From positions 1 through 53,237 of the forward strand of contig CAMVMK010000011.1 in the NCBI GenBank assembly GCA_947168585.1: a DNA stretch of 53,237 nucleotides, in the 5' to 3' direction. The notes under the pieces were generated by a model. It did not search any database. It was not told where the DNA came from and saw nothing but the letters and a program-made list of their open reading frames with translations. The number at the start of each line of letters is the position of its first letter. Positions within the stretch are counted from its first letter, which is position 1. Shown piece by piece: positions 285-50,608 of this stretch. Origin of the DNA: an uncultured Fretibacterium sp. Lineage in GTDB: Bacteria; Synergistota; Synergistia; Synergistales; Aminobacteriaceae. The translations under genes were made by a program, and so were the position numbers.

Positions 285-1040
285 ATGACAAAATTAATCA
301 CGGCTCTTGAATTTTACAGGCTTCTAATTTTAGATTACAAGATAAAATGCTTAACAGGCAGCATAAAATTTCAATTAGGAAATATCGATGTAGGAGTAAA
401 ACGCCGCGATGTAATAGGCGAGATTATTCAGGACTGGGTATGCGAGTGTCTGAGGCGTTCCGAAATAGATTTTATAGCTAACCCACTGCCTCAAAAGTCG
501 CCGGATATTTATTTGAACCCTCAGAATTTGCGCAGTGATTGGCTCGAAGTAAAGGCTTTCAACCGGTCAGACAATCCGAGATTCAGCATAGCGGTATTTG
601 ATTTTTTCGTTGAAGACTGCGTTAAGCGGCCTTGGCATCTTGACACTGATTATTTAATTTTCGGCTATGAAATGAACACGGAGACCGGCGAATTAAAAAT
701 TAAAGATTTATGGCTCAAAAAAATTTGGGAAATTACAAAACCCATGACTAAATGGCCTCTGACAGTTAAGACTTCCTGCGGCACTGCTGTCGAAATACGT
801 CCGTGCACATGGTACGCAACGAAAACTAACACGAAAGTTTTTGAAGGTCTTGAGGATTTTTTAGCGGCTTTAGAAGCGGCGGTCTTTCAAAATCCTGAAA
901 CACGTCCAAAATCTTATCTATGGCGGAACAGATTTTTAAGAAATTATGAAAGACATTACGGCAAAAAAATAAAATTCCCCAAATGGGACGAGATTAAACA
1001 CAAATATAAAAAAGACAGTTATAGTAACAACACTAAATAA
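285..1040 (+). CDS. NgoBV-family type II restriction endonuclease (solitary)
   Basis: A 251-aa protein resembling the NgoBV/NlaIV restriction endonuclease family, whose known members recognise GGNNCC. The sequence shows KRRDVIGEIIQDW near residue 40, a PD-(D/E)xK-like core made of SPDIYLN and then LEVKAFN around residues 68-92, and the family-typical DYLIFGYEM and IKDLWLKKIWEI further on. The start has only a distant GGGAGG (about 18 bases upstream), so translation may be weak. No DNA methyltransferase lies beside it: argG is on the left and a vWA gene on the right. The recognition site is inferred from the family and not visible in the sequence. Heptad repeats on both sides hint at insertion. 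Confidence 0.8.
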   Translation: MTKLITALEFYRLLILDYKIKCLTGSIKFQLGNIDVGVKRRDVIGEIIQDWVCECLRRSEIDFIANPLPQKSPDIYLNPQNLRSDWLEVKAFNRSDNPRFSIAVFDFFVEDCVKRPWHLDTDYLIFGYEMNTETGELKIKDLWLKKIWEITKPMTKWPLTVKTSCGTAVEIRPCTWYATKTNTKVFEGLEDFLAALEAAVFQNPETRPKSYLWRNRFLRNYERHYGKKIKFPKWDEIKHKYKKDSYSNNTK

Positions 1041-32119: not shown

Positions 32120-32195
32120 TGGTGGACGAGAGGATTCGAACCTCCGACCCCCTGCACCCCATGCAGATGCGCTAGCCAGACTGCGCTACGTCCCG
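32120..32195 (-). tRNA. tRNA-Pro (GGG), acceptor stem defective
   Basis: The reverse strand from 32195 reads CGGGACG then a D arm (GCGC..GCGC), an anticodon arm with loop ATGGGGT (anticodon GGG), a GGGTC variable loop, a T arm (GGAGG TTCGAAT CCTCT) and CGTCC directly followed by ACCA. A normal 3' strand would be CGTCCCG and then ACCA, so two bases (CG) are missing and the top two acceptor pairs cannot form. It lies exactly between the host array and the first phage gene, so it probably marks the attachment site. A stretch from 31981 to 32119 holds nothing I recognise. Confidence 0.75.
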
Positions 32196-32258
32196 TTCCA
32201 CACCCCTGCGTTTTCGTCTTTCCACACCTTTTCCATACTTTCCCGTATTTAGCACTCA

Positions 32259-32813
32259 CTAAGTAACAGTGCTAATAGTTTGCTTTACGTTGCCGCTATT
32301 GTCGATAATGTCAGCGTGAATATTCGCCCCGCGTTTCTCTGTCTGCTTACCCTCCGAGCCGGTGATAGCGTCGACCGCCATGCGCAACATCATCAAGGCG
32401 GCGGCTTTCTCTTGCTCCGTTCCACTTTTAACCAATCGCCGTGCATTATTAAGCACACCGCCCCAGTAGGCCATATTTAACTCTTGCGGTGTATTCGGGT
32501 CATACTCCCTTTCAGTCCCAAGCAACGGGTCTGTGATTTTTTCTTTCTCTTTAATAGGTAAAGACTTCGTTAGATTTTCAAGCAGCTGCTTCAATGGCGT
32601 TTCCGGCGGCGCGTCATCGGTCAAGCCCATTAGATACTCTACGGACGTGTTCAACGCCTCCGCGAGTTTAGGAAGCATTGAAGCACTCGGGCTTGTATTT
32701 CCCCATTCCCACCTGCGAACGGTCATTAATGAAACTCCTATTAAATCCGCTAATCTTTCTTGAGTAATTCCTATTCTTTTTCGTATCTCTTTTATCTTTA
32801 TTCCTACTGACAT
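32259..32813 (-). CDS. CI-like phage repressor (XRE family HTH)
   Basis: A 184-aa protein. HTH domain in residues 1-65 (IKEIRKRIGITQERLADLIG, recognition helix SLMTVRRWEWG), then a helical region and a polar tail with no S24 autoprotease. The start at 32813 is set by AAAGGAGGGAGT just upstream; the longer frame to 33092 is antisense to the leader. It faces a consensus rightward promoter across a region with direct repeats, the classic immunity layout. Without the S24 domain, induction may depend on the antirepressors encoded downstream (inference). It shares its recognition helix with the HTH protein at 35169. Confidence 0.87.
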   Translation of the reverse strand: MSVGIKIKEIRKRIGITQERLADLIGVSLMTVRRWEWGNTSPSASMLPKLAEALNTSVEYLMGLTDDAPPETPLKQLLENLTKSLPIKEKEKITDPLLGTEREYDPNTPQELNMAYWGGVLNNARRLVKSGTEQEKAAALMMLRMAVDAITGSEGKQTEKRGANIHADIIDNSGNVKQTISTVT

Positions 32814-32866
32814 ATTACTCCCTCCTTTTGAAATGATACCGTAATGAACCATTTTTATAAAGAACA

Positions 32867-32934
32867 TAAAAGAATTTATCTCGGTACTTAAAAGAATTAA
32901 AATAACTTGACAATCCAAAAAAGTATTATATAAT
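32867..32934 (+). promoter_or_regulatory. Early rightward phage promoter with candidate operators
   Basis: TTGACA (32907-32912), a 16-bp spacer and TATAAT (32929-32934) give a near-perfect promoter. TAAAAGAATT occurs at 32867-32876 and again at 32889-32898, 22 bp apart (two helical turns), as likely repressor sites. The rest of the gap 32935-33121 is an untranslated leader; a 20-codon TTG frame (MKTNRNEMSLTRRRTRKATN) is present but unsupported by a ribosome site. Confidence 0.75.
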
Positions 32935-33121
32935 TCATTCATAAACGAATTACGAAGCACTAAGTAAATTGAAAACCAATCGAAACGAGATGAGCCTAAC
33001 AAGGCGGCGCACTCGCAAGGCCACGAATTAAACAGCGGAGCAAGAAAAGCAGGGCGCAAATACAAGGCAACAACGCATAGAGCCTCCCGCAAGGGTTGTA
33101 GAGGAGAGGAAGGGAAAATTT

Positions 33122-33331
33122 ATGAGCGACAGTCTTTATTTAATCCAAATTCAAGGCTTCGATAAAGGAGAGGTTAGGTTGACATTTTCTTTTAATCCTG
33201 TGTATCACGACACAAGCAAAGCCGAATTAGAAGAAATTATCGGTATTGCCAAAGAATTACAGCGAGCGTTACAGAAAATTGACGAAGCTAAATTCAAGGC
33301 GCAACTAAGACGGAATAACGGAGGGGACTAA
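33122..33331 (+). CDS. Hypothetical phage protein (69 aa), first early gene
   Basis: A small protein with a beta-rich front (LYLIQIQGFDKGEVRLTFSF) and an amphipathic helical tail rich in K and E. GAGGAGAGGAAGGG precedes the ATG. It overlaps the next gene by one base. I do not recognise it; in this position phages often place Cro-like or anti-host proteins, but no HTH is visible. Confidence 0.7.
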   Translation: MSDSLYLIQIQGFDKGEVRLTFSFNPVYHDTSKAELEEIIGIAKELQRALQKIDEAKFKAQLRRNNGGD

Positions 33332-33570
33332 TGTATAAGCCGTTAGGTTACGAAAAAATGAACCCCGTGCAGTTGGCACTGGCTAATGCTGATTTGCATT
33401 TATCTTTTATACACGGGGCATTATTGGATTCAAAAACTCCTGAACTTGCAGAAATTAATCTCGAAGTTCATAAGTTGATTGATGAAGCTAACGATTGGCT
33501 TGAAGAACAAGGTTTTCCTTGTACTTACCGTAAACGTGTTGACGGAAAAATTGTTCGTCAAAGCCATTAA
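33331..33570 (+). CDS. Hypothetical phage protein (79 aa)
   Basis: A mostly helical small protein (MNPVQLALANADLHLSFIHG, INLEVHKLIDEANDWLEEQG). ATG shares one base with the previous stop (TAATG). Its last 83 bases overlap the leftward KTSC gene in antisense, so the two cannot both be highly transcribed without conflict. Function unknown. Confidence 0.65.
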   Translation: MYKPLGYEKMNPVQLALANADLHLSFIHGALLDSKTPELAEINLEVHKLIDEANDWLEEQGFPCTYRKRVDGKIVRQSH

Positions 33571-33715
33571 CTAACTCTAGCTCAATGTAGGCTTCAATCG
33601 AAAAATCTAGATACTGAATAACGCTATGGTCGCGGAACTCCACTTCCAAGACCTTAAGTTCAGCGTCATAACCTACTGAGACAACAGTATTAGCTATAAC
33701 AGGATTACGTTTCAT
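33488..33715 (-). CDS. KTSC-domain protein
   Basis: A 75-aa protein that follows the KTSC pattern: MKRNPVIANTVVSVGYDAE, a LEVEFRDHSVIQY strand pair, and a C-terminal YGKY. KTSC proteins are short and widespread in phages; some are fused to lysyl-tRNA synthetase-like proteins, and their role is not settled. An excellent GGAGGTGATG site precedes its ATG. It runs against the surrounding early genes and overlaps the end of the 33331 gene. Confidence 0.75.
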   Translation of the reverse strand: MKRNPVIANTVVSVGYDAELKVLEVEFRDHSVIQYLDFSIEAYIELELVNGFDEQFFRQHVYGKYKENLVLQANR

Positions 33716-33870
33716 TTTTCATCACCTCCCTTGCTGAGATTTTCATAATTTTAGCAGGGAGATATTTAAGGCAAAGGCCGAAACGCGGTCTTTCACGCGC
33801 TGCTCCGTTCTTGTTGATTAATTTCCGAGAACACCCGCAAGGGACAGTGAGGGGCGCAAAAAAAGAAAGA

Positions 33871-33946
33871 CCCGTCCGAGTGTCAAGCACTCGCTGACGA
33901 GGCCGTTATTCGTCCGTCAATATTTTTTAAGCAGTACCCAGACGGG
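33871..33946 (+). ncRNA. Structured RNA candidate, hammerhead-like in part
   Basis: CCCGTC (33871-33876) can pair with GACGGG (33941-33946). Directly after GTC (33874-33876) comes a 6-bp hairpin CGAGTG-TCAAG-CACTCG, immediately followed by CTGACGA (33894-33900), which fits the hammerhead CUGANGA box, with GUC as the cleavage triplet. The third core strand (GAA) is not intact (CAG at 33939-33941) and stem II is poor. A competing GACGA/TCGTC hairpin is also possible. The rest of the gap 33716-34004 holds no gene I can support. Confidence 0.35.
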
Positions 33947-34004
33947 CAAGGGGTAACAAGCTGAATCAGAAAAAAATTTAGGTAATTACACAGGAGGTAA
34001 TTAT

Positions 34005-34319
34005 ATGGTAGATATTTCCACTTTTCAAGAAGAGATGACCTCGTATGAGTTCGCCGATGACAACAAGTACGTCTGGTACAAGTTGGACGACATTTTAAGG
34101 TTGACCGAATTAACGGAGAAAGACCTTCAAGAACTTCCTGAAGAGGAAAGAAATGTCCGTGAATTAATTGACGGGACTAAGGTTATTCAAGAACCCGCCG
34201 CTTATCTTCTGATTTTCTTTATAAGCAAATCGAAGAAGGTCAAAAAAATGCAGGATTGGCTTTTTAATAAAGTCTTGCCCGACATCGAAACAAAAGGTTA
34301 TTACATTAAAGGAGTGTAA
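34005..34319 (+). CDS. BRO-N-like phage protein (104 aa)
   Basis: A short protein with features of the BRO N-terminal fold: YVWYKLDDILRLTEL, a VRELIDGTKVIQEPAAYLLIF strand region, and the ending KMQDWLFNKVLPDIETKGYYI, where the LPxIxxxGYY motif is typical of BRO and antirepressor N-domains. It has no C-terminal partner domain and precedes the full-length antirepressor by three bases, so it may work with it. An ACAGGAGG site sets the start. Confidence 0.75.
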   Translation: MVDISTFQEEMTSYEFADDNKYVWYKLDDILRLTELTEKDLQELPEEERNVRELIDGTKVIQEPAAYLLIFFISKSKKVKKMQDWLFNKVLPDIETKGYYIKGV

Positions 34320-34322
34320 ACA

Positions 34323-35156
34323 ATGAACAGTGAATTAAAACTTTTAACAACGCGCGAATTTAACGGTGTAGCACTCGACTGCTACAAGGCTGACAACGAA
34401 GACGACGGCTTCTGGGCAACAAGAGAGCAAATAGGACGGCTTTTAGGATATTCCGAACCGCGAATTGCAATCGGGAAAATTCATCAGCGAAATCAAGAAC
34501 GTCTCGATAAATTTTCGGGGGTAGTCAATTTGGTTACCCCCTCCGGCGGAACGCAAGCCACAACGGTTTATAACTTCAAAGGGTTTCTTGAAATTTGCCG
34601 CTTCTCAAATCAACCGAACGCGAATGATGTCATGGATTTTGCTTGGCACGTCATGGACGAAATTCATCAAAAAGGGATTTACATGACACCGGCAAAAGCT
34701 GAGGAAATTATCAGCAACCCCGACTTAATCATCAGGCTGGCGGAAGAAGTCAAAGCGGAGCGGGCAAGAGCGGCGGAACTCGAAATGCAGAAAACAGCAC
34801 TCGCCGCCAAGATTGAAGCGGATAAATCCAAAGTGATTTTTGCAGAGGCAGTCGGAGAAAGCAAGGACGGAATGGTAATAGGGACATTCGCAAAACTGCT
34901 CAAACAAAACGGAATTGACGTAGGACAACAGCGGCTTTTTGTATGGTTTAGGGAACACGGCTGGCTCATGAACACGTGGGACTGCAGACGCAACACCCCG
35001 ACCCAAAAGGCATTAAATAAGGGATTTTTTATAGCCCGTGAGAATGTCATTTATACGGATTCCGGAATAAGGACACCCGCTCCCACGCCGCTACTCACAG
35101 GGAAAGGGAGGATTTACTTCCTTAACGGATTTAAGAGCGGGGAGTTTCAGATTTAA
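34323..35156 (+). CDS. BRO-N / KilAC antirepressor
   Basis: A 277-aa antirepressor. The N-domain (about 1-125) shows FWATREQIGRLLGYSEPRIAIGKIH. A helical linker (125-170) is rich in A, E and K. The C-terminal KilAC domain (about 175-277) shows IGTFAKLLKQNGIDVGQQRLFVWFREHGWL and ends SGEFQI. Relatives inactivate CI repressors directly. Since the repressor here lacks an autoprotease, this is a good candidate for the induction switch. Confidence 0.88.
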   Translation: MNSELKLLTTREFNGVALDCYKADNEDDGFWATREQIGRLLGYSEPRIAIGKIHQRNQERLDKFSGVVNLVTPSGGTQATTVYNFKGFLEICRFSNQPNANDVMDFAWHVMDEIHQKGIYMTPAKAEEIISNPDLIIRLAEEVKAERARAAELEMQKTALAAKIEADKSKVIFAEAVGESKDGMVIGTFAKLLKQNGIDVGQQRLFVWFREHGWLMNTWDCRRNTPTQKALNKGFFIARENVIYTDSGIRTPAPTPLLTGKGRIYFLNGFKSGEFQI

Positions 35157-46931: not shown

Positions 46932-48375
46932 TGAAGAGGCTGAGATAGACGACAGCGAGATACGTGAGGCGTTAGAGCTGCAGAGCCGTGCGCTGAACTC
47001 GCTTATCGATTTTAGGAGGATATTCATTCCCGACGACGACGACGTAGAGCCCGCGCCGTTCCATTACCAGTGGAGCGACATTTTACTTCATGGCGACAAG
47101 AACTTTGCGATTGAGGCGTTCCGTGAGAGTGCTAAGACACAGATAGTCATCAGGGCTAACCTGTTACACGCGCTGACGTTCCCGCAGGAGCACAGGAGTT
47201 ACTTAGTTATCATCTGTGCTACACAGACAACGGCGAGCAAGAAGCTGCAGGAAGTAACGAGGGAGTTCAACCAGACCCCCGAGATGAGCGGTCTTGTTGC
47301 TAAAGTTATCGAGGATAACGGGGGCGCGTACGAGGTCGTTTACAAGGACGGCGCGAAAGTGCGCCTTGAGGCATACGGTAAGGGCGGCACGGTTCGCGGC
47401 TTATCGTGGGGTGCTAAGAGGCCGGATTTGGTTATCATAGACGACCCGCAGGACGATGAGGACGCGCGTAGCGAGACGACCACCGAGAACAACTGGAACT
47501 GGTTTTTGAGCGATGTTTACTTTCTTGGTAAGAAGACGCGAATTTTCATGATTGGCAACAATCTTGGTGAGCGTTGCATGATAGAGCAGGTAATAAACGC
47601 GGCGGAGCAGTTGAAGTTTGAGGCAATCCGTATTCCGATAATGGACGCTGAGGGTAAGCCCGCGTGGCCGTCGAAGTGGCCGCTTTCCGAGATTGAGCGC
47701 GACCGTGAGAAGTGGGAGCAGTTAGGGAAGATAGACATATGGTATCGGGAGAAGATGTGTCAAGCGTTAAGCCCTGAAAGCCAGAAATTCAAGGAAGAGT
47801 ATTTCAAGTACTACGACAAAGAGCCGGATTTGAATACGCTGAATATCTACACTACTGTAGACTTGGCGATAAGCCAGAAAGTTAATGCTGACTATTCGGC
47901 CATTGTAACGGTCGGTGTTAATTCCGCCGGACATTGGTTTGTGCTTGATGTTGAGTACGGGCGATACGACCCTACGATGACGATAGACGCGATATTTGAC
48001 GCGGTTAAGAAGTGGCACCCGCTGAGTGTCGGAATAGAGAGCGTCGCGTATCAGGCGGCGTTGCAGCACTTTTTAGAAAAGGAAATGCCTCGCAGGGGTG
48101 TGTTCTTTAGGATAGTGCCGCTTAAGGCGGAGAAGAAGAAAGAGATTAGGATAGATAACATTCAACCGCGCTTTGCAGTAGGGACGGTGTGGTTTAGGAG
48201 CGGAGCGTCATGGTTAGACAAGATAAAGGGGGAGCTGCTTGCTTACCCGAACGGTCTGCATGACGACGTGATAGACGCGCTGGCCTACATGGAACAAATG
48301 GCGGTCAGTCCCTACGAATATGACAATAAGGGAGGGGGTTTGAGTGAAGATTGGAACCCGATAATAGGGATTTAG
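46849..48375 (+). CDS. Terminase large subunit
   Basis: A 508-aa packaging motor. The ATPase half has a variant Walker A (FRESAKTQ, about residue 92), Walker B LVIIDDPQDDE (about 195) and a coupling region (MIGNNLGERC). The nuclease half has the acidic YTTVDLAIS (about 315), VGIESVAYQ and the final HDDVIDALAYM. Start ATG 46849 (or GTG 46846) lies inside the small subunit gene, an overlap that coordinates their levels. It packages DNA into the prohead through the portal encoded next. Confidence 0.9.
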   Translation: MTTSENVEKTIITTAARETAHSLSTSSNEEAEIDDSEIREALELQSRALNSLIDFRRIFIPDDDDVEPAPFHYQWSDILLHGDKNFAIEAFRESAKTQIVIRANLLHALTFPQEHRSYLVIICATQTTASKKLQEVTREFNQTPEMSGLVAKVIEDNGGAYEVVYKDGAKVRLEAYGKGGTVRGLSWGAKRPDLVIIDDPQDDEDARSETTTENNWNWFLSDVYFLGKKTRIFMIGNNLGERCMIEQVINAAEQLKFEAIRIPIMDAEGKPAWPSKWPLSEIERDREKWEQLGKIDIWYREKMCQALSPESQKFKEEYFKYYDKEPDLNTLNIYTTVDLAISQKVNADYSAIVTVGVNSAGHWFVLDVEYGRYDPTMTIDAIFDAVKKWHPLSVGIESVAYQAALQHFLEKEMPRRGVFFRIVPLKAEKKKEIRIDNIQPRFAVGTVWFRSGASWLDKIKGELLAYPNGLHDDVIDALAYMEQMAVSPYEYDNKGGGLSEDWNPIIGI

Positions 48376-50237
48376 GGTTGGACAAGGTTAAGATAAAAAA
48401 CACAATCCTAAACGATATAAAGAGAGCGAACAATTTTTTCAATTCAAAGATAGAGCCTACATTAAGAACCCGCCACCAGATATATGAAGCAGACAAGGAT
48501 TATTACAAAAAGCGTTTCAGCAAATTAGGGACGCAGATTGACTTTGTGAGTTATGACTTTTGGGCAATGGTGCAGTGGGCTATCCCTAACATAATGAATG
48601 CGTTTTTCGGGAGCGATGACGCGCTTGTAATAGTCGGTCGGAGCAGCGAGGACGTACCGAGAGCGGAGGTCTTCAAGAAGCTGATAGATTTCCAGCTTAT
48701 GACGCAGAACAAGGGCTTTTTAGTTCTTTGGGACTGGTTTACGGACGCATTCCAGTACAACTTAGGAGCGGTCAAAGTATGGTGGCAGCGTGATGAGGAG
48801 TGGGGCGAGGAGCATTTTGAGTATGCTGACCCTACGCGGCTTATGATGTTGCAGGCCGACCAGTGGTGCGAGATTACGGAAATAAGCCCGCCCGATATGT
48901 ACGGCAATGTAGAGGTCTACTACAGGATAGGGCGGTTAAAGGTAAACAGGCCTGTGATAGAGAATATCAGGGTAACAGATTTGCGGTGGTCTCCCGAAGC
49001 TAAGGGGCTTAACGACGCTAACTTCGTGGCGCACAAGCAGAATGTAACAGCTGACCATTTGAGGAGGCAGGCAGCAGCGGGGGTTTATGACCCTATGGCG
49101 GTAGAGCGTGCTGTATCAGATGAGAGCAGCGGGGTTATTTATTCTGCGTTCGAGACGGAGTTAAACGATGAGTTAGACCAGCGGTTTAAGGAAGACGACA
49201 GCGCGAGAAACCTGTATGAACTTTACGAGTGCTATGTGAAAGTAGACATTAACGGCGACGGGCTTTTAGAAGACGCGATAGTTACTATGGTAGGCGAGGA
49301 GATGTTGAGGGTAGAGGAGAACCCCTACGGGCGTGTTCCTATATTCACGGTATCGCCGATAAGGGACGCTTTCAAGGTCTTAGCTAACCTGTCATTCAGT
49401 GAGATAGTCGGAGAAGTCCAAAGCAGCAAGACGGCGTTAATGCGCCAGCTGATACTGAACACGGTCAACACGAACAATTTACGGTGGTTTGTAAATCCTA
49501 CGGGCATAGACCTTAAGGACTTACAGGAGAACCGCCAGTATATCAAGAACAAATCGGGCGACCCTAAAGCGTCGGTTATGCCGTTCCCGCAGGCCTCGCT
49601 TGCAGGGTGGACAATGCCGCTGTTTGAGTATTTCGAGGGCACGTTAGAGCAGTGGACGGGCAGAACCCGTTACAATCAAGGCACGGACAGTTCGAGCTTG
49701 AACAAGACGGCGACGGGTATCAGTCTGCTTCAACAGGCGAGCGCACAGAGGATAGACTACATAATCAGAGTATTTGCTGAGACTGGTGTAGGTGAAATGG
49801 TGCGCTTCCTGATTGAGTTAAACCAGAAGTACATAGACCAGCCGCAAGTGGTTAGACTGCAGAACACCATGCTGCAGATAAGCCCTGATGATTTAAGCGG
49901 CGAGTTCGACATTGACGTAAACACGGAGGTCGGTGTCGGGAAGAAGAAGCAGATGATTAATAACATGCAGCTTTATCTGAGTGCGATTGCGCCTACGGGA
50001 ATGCAGATAGGAGCAATAACGCCTGGCGAATGGGCTAAAGCGGCGCAGAGGCTTTTAAGCGACAGCGGAGTGAGAGACCCAGAGAGCTACGTACAAGACC
50101 CTGAGATTATCAAGCAGCAGTTCTTTATGAACCTTGCGACGTTGCAGGGGCAAATGGCCACGCAGCAGGGAATAGCGCAGGGTATTCAGCAGGCCGCCGG
50201 TGCAATGCAGCAGCCGCAGCAGGCAAATCAAAGTTAG
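48351..50237 (+). CDS. Phage portal protein
   Basis: A 628-aa portal of the long type. The N-terminal helical region shows YEADKDYYKKRFSKLG and VQWAIPNIMNAFFGSDDAL; a middle wing shows GRVPIFTVSPIRDAFK and SEIVGEVQSSKTALMRQLI. GIDLKDLQENRQYIKN and TRYNQGTDSSSLNKTATGIS follow, and the C-terminus is Gln/Met-rich. It starts at TTG 48351 behind GGAGGGGG (48331-48338), overlapping the terminase by 25 bases. Similar portals occur in podoviruses with DUF5309 capsids. Confidence 0.85.
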   Translation: MEPDNRDLGLDKVKIKNTILNDIKRANNFFNSKIEPTLRTRHQIYEADKDYYKKRFSKLGTQIDFVSYDFWAMVQWAIPNIMNAFFGSDDALVIVGRSSEDVPRAEVFKKLIDFQLMTQNKGFLVLWDWFTDAFQYNLGAVKVWWQRDEEWGEEHFEYADPTRLMMLQADQWCEITEISPPDMYGNVEVYYRIGRLKVNRPVIENIRVTDLRWSPEAKGLNDANFVAHKQNVTADHLRRQAAAGVYDPMAVERAVSDESSGVIYSAFETELNDELDQRFKEDDSARNLYELYECYVKVDINGDGLLEDAIVTMVGEEMLRVEENPYGRVPIFTVSPIRDAFKVLANLSFSEIVGEVQSSKTALMRQLILNTVNTNNLRWFVNPTGIDLKDLQENRQYIKNKSGDPKASVMPFPQASLAGWTMPLFEYFEGTLEQWTGRTRYNQGTDSSSLNKTATGISLLQQASAQRIDYIIRVFAETGVGEMVRFLIELNQKYIDQPQVVRLQNTMLQISPDDLSGEFDIDVNTEVGVGKKKQMINNMQLYLSAIAPTGMQIGAITPGEWAKAAQRLLSDSGVRDPESYVQDPEIIKQQFFMNLATLQGQMATQQGIAQGIQQAAGAMQQPQQANQS

Positions 50238-50257
50238 ATTATTTCTAACTTTCACAT

Positions 50258-50309
50258 GCCGGTTCAAGGTATGGCGGTAATCGTGTGAGTTCAAGTCTCA
50301 TAACCGGCG
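50258..50309 (+). other. tRNA-like mini-element: acceptor stem and T arm only
   Basis: GCCGGTT (50258-50264) is perfectly complementary to AACCGGC (50302-50308), followed by a G in the discriminator position. The T arm is complete: GTGAG, loop TTCAAGT (matching TTCRANT), CTCAT (50285-50301). Only 20 bases join the two arms, so D and anticodon arms are missing (a tRNA needs about 42 or more). The joining piece ATGGCGGTAA resembles the front of a tRNA-Leu D arm. It lies 20 bases after the portal stop and 27 bases before the next start. No CCA is encoded. Confidence 0.65.
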
Positions 50310-50335
50310 ATATTAAATTTCAGGAGGTTTCAACA

Positions 50336-50608
50336 ATGTTATTAGGCGGTTGGAATTATGACGAAGTTAAATCCGCGAATTTGCCGCAGAAAGTTGCGAG
50401 TGCATTTACCGCAATCACGGAAAATCTTATCGGTGCTGAGTATATGCCGATAGCTTACGCGGGAAGTCAAGTCGCAAACGGGATTAATCACTGCATTATC
50501 GCGTTGCAGAGCATTATGTCTCCTGGTGCGGAGAAGCGGTTAGTCAAGATGATTATCAACATCGACACGAACTGCAAGCCCGCGCTTGTATCAATCAGCG
50601 AACTTTAA
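50336..50608 (+). CDS. Hypothetical late phage protein (90 aa)
   Basis: A helical protein (PQKVASAFTAITENLIGAEY, AEKRLVKMIINIDTN). ATG 50336 is chosen because CAGGAGG lies just before it; the longer GTG frame would start inside the tRNA-like element. Between the portal and scaffold genes a head accessory role is likely but unproven. Confidence 0.7.
   Translation: MLLGGWNYDEVKSANLPQKVASAFTAITENLIGAEYMPIAYAGSQVANGINHCIIALQSIMSPGAEKRLVKMIINIDTNCKPALVSISEL

Follow-up and report, generated by a model that had tools for sequence, protein, structure and literature searches.

We have discovered a family of anticodon-less, tRNA-like elements that lie between genes of phages of rumen Synergistaceae, one copy of which is found on contig CAMVMK010000011.1 of an uncultured Fretibacterium sp. 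(GenBank assembly GCA_947168585.1). The window, that is, the whole 53,237-nt stretch of DNA that was analysed, carries this copy at positions 50258-50308, between a phage portal gene and a gene for a 90-amino-acid (90-aa) protein. The family as collected comprises 32 members in phage loci of rumen Synergistaceae and in a few other viral contigs. On balance, we favour the hypothesis that the element is a cis-acting tRNA mimic that serves as an mRNA punctuation mark, at which host RNase P would cut polycistronic phage mRNA. The initial annotation had offered two explanations for the window copy, a processing signal or a relic of a tRNA-Leu with an internal deletion; the former is the best supported, given covarying relatives that often occupy the same position and a conserved leader that matches the contacts of RNase P.

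Judged alone, the window copy is borderline against chance and only suggestive. A strict descriptor (seven Watson-Crick acceptor pairs, five T-stem pairs, a TTCRA loop and a gap of 8-60 nt, on both strands) found one match in the window and two matches in 60 first-order Markov windows, or ~0.03 per window. Since Markov windows also yield the strict structure, the initial argument that perfect arms speak for selection is weak by itself. The comparison with relatives therefore decides, and it is the family that carries the argument.

Among 31 aligned rows (30 elements plus a genuine tRNA-Gly caught by the model, L147 8267; L numbers are our handles for loci), 99.0% of cells were paired against 82.2% in shuffled and at most 59.4% in slid controls, and 93 cells were doubly changed against 28 and at most 23, respectively, in a model-based alignment that is fitted to the model and leans towards its structure. 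Double changes occurred in six of seven acceptor pairs, three of four D-stem pairs and four of five T-stem pairs. At fixed positions in 30 elements, 207 of 210 acceptor pairs and 147 of 150 T-stem pairs were formed, against maxima of 183 and 129 in 10,000 permutations, a count that also leans, as members from descriptor scans had to pair in order to be found. Covariation of the acceptor stem, which had been proposed as a check, is thus borne out. In a MAFFT alignment (A1) the D arm was out of place, and the counts do not use it.

Conservation is also seen outside the helices. Of the 30 members of sufficient length, 26 have the core U8-A14-A15-U48 (L070, L076 49, L206 4325 and L206 3901 depart from it, the last with the compensated pair G15-C48), and a D-loop GG, at most 7 nt after A14, is present in 29 of the same 30. 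This conserved core and GG indicate that selection keeps the upper half and elbow of a tRNA. A usual tRNA has 22-23 nt between the D and T stems, and the members have 8-24 nt. Among the middles of 30 members, read by eye, no canonical U33 anticodon loop was seen; as read from the letters, L074 2214-2286 alone has an anticodon arm of 5 bp and 7 nt, in which position 33 is A rather than U. An encoded CCA is found in none of the 32 elements, versus a CCA near the end of 47 of 52 host tRNA genes.

Descent of the family from a tRNA is likely from these sequences, because a few longer copies (L074 2214 and L068 10620) keep anticodon-arm-like hairpins in the middle and ARAGORN names five of the 30 members run, skipping the other 25. 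In RF00005 searches, eight of 12 members in seven loci exceed 29 bits (36.9-49.7). A relic of tRNA-Leu in particular was rejected: no relative was observed with a tRNA-Leu at this position, and the ARAGORN calls are two Thr, two Gln and one Glu. The finding that the initial annotation had named as speaking against its reading, a full tRNA at this position in related phages with a deletion in the window copy, was made only in small part: relatives keep the D arm lost here (and also lost in L073 1588-1640), and L074 2214-2286 has the anticodon arm described above.

The leader AYAT (positions -4 to -1) precedes 28 of the 32 elements (all except L012, L070, L072 2619 and L206 3901) and none of 52 distinct host tRNA genes. 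T(-1) is present in all 32 and A(-2) in 31, and conservation stops at -4. Excerpts of one study of bacterial RNase P describe leader contacts in which U(-1) is optimal, N(-2) stacks on A333 and N(-4) touches RnpA; nucleotides beyond -4 have little influence, and one bacterial RNase P prefers U or A at -4 (PMC9433436). The conserved AYAT positions are those that bacterial RNase P contacts, and elements without an RCCA contact would be expected to profit most from a favourable leader. According to excerpts of a further source, a tRNA can be extensively truncated and still be accepted by bacterial RNase P (PMC4919922). The host genome contains RNase P RNA (276.7 bits), RnpA (82.2 bits) and, at a contig edge, an RNase Z-like fragment (51.3 bits, under the family cut-off); the host probably has RNase Z.

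Two other accounts of the leader letters were tried and rejected. AYAT does not fit a -10 promoter box, since conservation is absent at -5 and weak at -6. The string ATG-NNN-NNN-TAG (AT|G plus the tRNA UAG) occurs in many members; as a constrained three-codon open reading frame (ORF) it is broken by L072 1424, which has a shorter acceptor, and by L078, and L012 and L072 2619 lack the ATG. No Shine-Dalgarno sequence was seen by eye before this ORF.

Judged on gene boundaries, the tRNA-like fold lies between genes, as in t-elements. Both nearest ORFs are on the element's strand for 26 of 30 members and the downstream ORF is co-directional for 29; among the exceptions, two have no upstream ORF in the fetched stretch, L009 4079 has an opposite gene upstream, and L078 has a probably spurious opposite ORF downstream. 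Some members lie 2-20 nt past a stop codon and others follow a strong hairpin. Hairpins with z < -3 lie upstream of 11 of 32 elements versus 6 of 43 control gaps (Fisher p 0.051; earlier shuffles gave 12 of 30, and the new shuffles are used here). Hairpins leaving a tail of 4-8 nt before the element were found for 9 of 32 versus 1 of 43 (Fisher p 0.0015), with a tail cut-off that was picked after the first hairpin scan had been seen. The controls were 43 other co-directional gaps from the same loci, in stretches ending 20 nt before the next start.

Among eight element-free 90-aa gene sites inspected, a terminator-like hairpin with a T run is present in L020, L021, L022, L024, L027 and L028. 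Because element-free sites carry such hairpins instead, a transcript boundary seems to lie upstream of the 90-aa gene with or without the element. At the same six loci, ATG[CG] follows the hairpin or T run, resembling the leader plus the element's first base; this may be a deletion scar, a start codon or chance.

A covariance model, R1, was built from seven D-armed members with the window copy left out. It finds the window copy at 26.4 bits (E ~1e-4 in 165 kb, the model's E-values being rough) and further members that precede genes for ParB/DNA-methylase, for Rha-like regulators and for an XkdF-like protease. The 90-aa gene has relatives in seven viral contigs; within the window's genus, 17 of 43 genomes carry one. 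Many of these are directly preceded by a tRNA-like element (57-73 nt) that has the acceptor, D and T arms and a middle too small or irregular to form an ordinary anticodon arm. The initial annotation had suggested searching this position in related phages, and a related element is thus often present there. Within the genus, the 90-aa gene occurs at 20 loci, of which nine have an element upstream and two have one downstream only (the 20 loci are 21 rows, two being halves of one gene, and L030 has only a 16-bit fragment). Among the matches listed in the scan of the genus, members occur in at least 11 of the 43 genomes, and the window's own genome has copies on four contigs (C3, C8, C11 and C92).

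In 185 Synergistota genomes, searched with strict filters, all matches shorter than 71 nt among those listed at E 1e-9 or better fall within the window's genus, a threshold that weak members such as the window copy cannot pass; the other listed Synergistota rows are, by eye, 72 nt, the ordinary tRNA length. A DNA search of cultured phages with the element gave only two weak matches (E 0.5), both records of one Erwinia phage. The 90-aa protein had no match in Pfam, PHROGs, PDB sequences or INPHARED. The portal protein matches 663 cultured-phage records, all below 60% identity.

The 32 members include three from a pattern scan (L147, L166 and L171) and two in L206, and not all are independent (L008 2917 and L075 are near-copies, as are L008 4886 and L077). 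Further near-copies of L166 (L169 and L170) and of L009 (L010, L011, L151, L152 and L173) were dropped, as were copies of L008 (L168 and L202) and of the window (L007, L013 and L201). L139 and L165 were rejected on the grounds that the structure was not matched or was that of an ordinary tRNA. Viral pattern scans (9 + 30 stretches) returned mostly ordinary tRNAs, with the T-arm pattern matching early. Scans without the leader condition (32 + 16 stretches) found, besides existing members, further short tRNA-likes that were left out of the member counts. The short tRNA-likes of L091, L106, L120 and L121, which are other viral contigs, were likewise left out; these have CAT without the full AYAT.

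Elements at L166 5924-5980 (also in L169 and L170) and L171 12127-12184 are 57-58 nt long, have an ATAT leader and lie on contigs of other phage types, one of them near a terminase small subunit gene; the family may not be confined to Synergistaceae phages. Other viral contigs contain tRNA-likes of 56-58 nt with no room for an anticodon arm (L097 9458-9515, L105 3192-3249 and L107 221-276), which, unlike the AYAT family, are followed by ACC or ACCA. In L026, a DUF3800-VIII RNA (RF03075, 48.1 bits) is located at 709-775 (+), ~600 nt upstream of the tRNA-like element of that locus.

The features of the window copy and its flanks are as follows.

48351-50237, + strand: SU10-type portal gene upstream (Pfam PF23899); start codon as listed, may begin later
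50230-50252, + strand: 9-bp hairpin AAAGTTAGA/TCTAACTTT with a 5-nt loop; overlaps the portal stop codon and ends 5 nt before the element
50254-50257, + strand: leader ACAT (A-4 C-3 A-2 T-1), one form of the conserved AYAT, with RNase P predicted to cut after 50257
50258-50264, + strand: acceptor stem 5' strand GCCGGTT, from sequence, covariation and fold
50265-50284, + strand: 20-nt linker; most relatives have a D arm and an 8-24 nt linker here, and the window copy has neither D nor anticodon arm
50285-50301, + strand: T arm, stem GTGAG (50285-50289)/CTCAT (50297-50301), loop TTCAAGT (50290-50296)
50302-50308, + strand: acceptor stem 3' strand AACCGGC, from sequence, covariation and fold
50309, + strand: discriminator G, with no CCA after it; a predicted RNase Z 3' cut follows this base
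50322-50327, + strand: Shine-Dalgarno-like AGGAGG of the downstream gene, by eye
50336-50608, + strand: downstream phage gene for the 90-aa protein, for which a cystatin-like fold is predicted; its relatives are often flanked by an element, on one side or on both

The window copy has an acceptor stem and a T arm with a TTCRA loop, as in tRNA (RF00005). All seven acceptor pairs are Watson-Crick and 20 bases separate the arms, as initially described; the T arm, which had been called perfect, is complete and has the consensus loop (UUCAAGU), but the first of its five pairs is a G-U wobble. When excised, the 51 nt fold as a tRNA-like structure (mean pair probability 0.92 for the acceptor and 0.93 for the T stem). 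The element begins 20 nt past the portal stop (50237), and its acceptor end lies 27 nt before the ATG (50336) of the 90-aa gene. The hairpin at 50230-50252 has a z of -6.4 versus dinucleotide shuffles, also appears in the computed fold, and is a candidate 3' end of the upstream mRNA after cleavage. ARAGORN, run on the window, did not report the element and found no tmRNA, and Rfam at its gathering threshold did not report this copy as a tRNA (RF00005). With no anticodon arm, no CCA and a score below the Rfam threshold, the window element is not a tRNA by sequence-based tests. Elsewhere in the window (32121-35156), a tRNA-Pro(GGG) at 32121-32195 adjoins a helix-turn-helix (HTH) gene (32259-33092) and a KilAC antirepressor gene (34323-35156); the left end of the prophage may lie at this tRNA, with the late genes to the right.

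From the observed structure, its conservation, its placement and its leader, we infer a route of transcription, cleavage by RNase P and RNase Z, and an effect on expression. A long phage mRNA would be transcribed through the element, whose acceptor stem and T arm, joined in most copies by a D-loop/T-loop elbow, would fold as the upper half of a tRNA. Host RNase P would cut the A-Y-A-U|G junction and free the upstream mRNA, which in about a third of cases would carry a strong hairpin close to the newly made 3' end. The downstream message would be released next, by RNase Z or trimming nucleases, immediately ahead of its ribosome-binding site. Genes of one phage operon, often accessory ones, would thereby gain separate mRNA ends. 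In the window, a cut after 50257 would leave the portal mRNA with its hairpin and a 5-nt tail, and a second cut after 50309 would leave a 26-nt leader holding the Shine-Dalgarno sequence. We put at about even the broader proposal that phages of one rumen Synergistaceae genus made tRNA into dispersed anticodon-less marks with a built-in RNase P leader, handing the cutting to the host.

Several observations weigh against this hypothesis. The 52-tRNA control for the leader is redundant, consisting mainly of one Thr-Tyr-Thr cluster from many genomes, and the member set includes near-copies. Three of the 32 members were found through a pattern containing TATG, without which AYAT is present in 25 of 29, and adding L091, L106, L120 and L121 gives 28 of 36. 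At -4, E. coli RNase P prefers C and not A, according to excerpts of PMC9433436. Nine of the genus's 20 loci that carry the 90-aa gene have no element in the fetched stretch. Computed acceptor pair probability is at least 0.85 in 29 of 32 members and lower in three, and T-stem probability is below 0.5 in 12 of 32, values that are secondary-structure energies without the elbow and would not settle the T-stem question. The window copy itself lacks the RCCA with which bacterial RNase P pairs and, having no D arm, also lacks the D-loop GG of the elbow. Its minimum-energy fold with flanks is another hairpin, CAUGCC/GGUAUG, which uses the leader; as modelled, this competing fold could make the copy a poor or a regulated one.

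Among the alternatives, it is possible, if unlikely, that the element acts in trans, as an excised and perhaps CCA-tailed small RNA that is a free tRNA mimic, for example a decoy for a host factor that binds or cuts tRNA; lacking an anticodon, such a mimic could not be touched by anticodon nucleases. Conservation of elbow and core beyond the helices needed for cleavage would fit this role, as would the copies on four contigs of one genome. The stop-to-start placement at many loci and the conserved leader argue instead for action on the flanking mRNA, and the window copy lacks the D half of the elbow. We consider it improbable that the elements are phage-acquired tRNA genes in decay, now functionless. 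The anticodon-arm-like hairpins of the longer copies, the five ARAGORN calls, and the short tRNA-likes of other viral contigs, some adjoining tRNAs, are what decay would leave behind. Compensatory changes in all three helices, a leader common to 28 of 32 members, the placement at many loci and the lack of a canonical U33 loop by eye point the other way, and the members collected speak against random arms and leaders.

Equally doubtful is a regulatory leader of the downstream gene, in which tRNA mimicry would bind a synthetase, EF-Tu or the ribosome and control translation. In the window, L008, L009, L012, L065, L066, L067, L069 and L074, the element does lie ~25-31 nt before the ATG of the 90-aa gene, close to its Shine-Dalgarno sequence. 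The distance to other ORFs varies, however (27 nt in L072, mostly 47-94, 209 in L066), the genes that follow (90-aa gene, ParB/DNA-methylase, Rha regulator, XkdF protease) are unrelated, and the 5' flank is the best conserved (the 3' flank past the discriminator being judged by eye). A DNA-level role, as a recombination seam or target bracketing accessory genes, appears very improbable. Elements do stand on both sides of the 90-aa gene in L065, L066, L074 and L206 and bracket the Rha-like gene in L068, but their pairs covary rather than the sequence staying conserved, and the two copies of L065 differ in several acceptor and T-stem letters.

Cis-acting punctuation by RNase P, the best explanation of the family, would make the phage elements work like plant mitochondrial t-elements and the mascRNA precursor. 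Plant mitochondrial t-elements set mRNA ends. In excerpts of PMC4919922, they are described as tRNA-like structures in mitochondrial transcripts that are cut by a tRNA-processing enzyme. The phage elements share the tRNA-like structure within a transcript and differ in their location in phage operons, in a bacterium with an RNA-based RNase P, and in their many copies, AYAT leader and lack of a usable anticodon arm. mascRNA and menRNA are ~60 nt long. They derive from MALAT1 and MEN-beta by cutting with RNase P and then RNase Z, which leaves the 3' end of the upstream RNA, according to excerpts of PMC11693755. Like the phage elements, they are described there with an acceptor stem, T arm and elbow; two D-loop guanines of a mascRNA-like elbow are absent from the window copy, which has no D arm, and present in its relatives at the frequency given above. 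In mascRNA, which belongs to the human nucleus, the D arm is reduced and a stem equivalent to the anticodon arm is present, whereas most phage elements have a 4-bp D arm and no anticodon arm.

Minimal model substrates of bacterial RNase P consist of an acceptor stem and T arm. The window copy, with 12 bp of acceptor and T stem and a T loop, resembles them, although it is natural, lies in an operon and lacks their 3' RCCA. The tRNA-like domain of tmRNA likewise has acceptor and T arms without an anticodon arm, but tmRNA encodes a tag, and none was detected in the window. To our knowledge, RNase P sites of the lac type are not a family of dispersed conserved tRNA mimics. They do share with the proposed phage elements the action of RNase P on operon mRNA, as RNase P acts on bacterial polycistronic mRNAs including that of the lac operon (excerpts of PMC4919922).

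Titles and abstracts listed in searches of the PMC open-access literature yielded nothing on anticodon-less tRNA-like elements between phage genes. We know of no earlier case of a bacterial virus using tRNA mimics as repeated mRNA processing signals, and the family would, if the hypothesis is correct, be the first. In that case, acceptor, T arm and leader would prove to be enough of a tRNA for RNase P in nature, the anticodon arm being dispensable, and the family would offer minimal substrates of natural origin and a cutting element ready for use in synthetic operons. Further elements may lie unseen in phage genomes, because ARAGORN skipped most of the members run. On the view that we hold to be evenly balanced, the phages would punctuate transcripts by tRNA as mitochondria do, although as viruses of bacteria and with a tRNA stripped of its decoding part.
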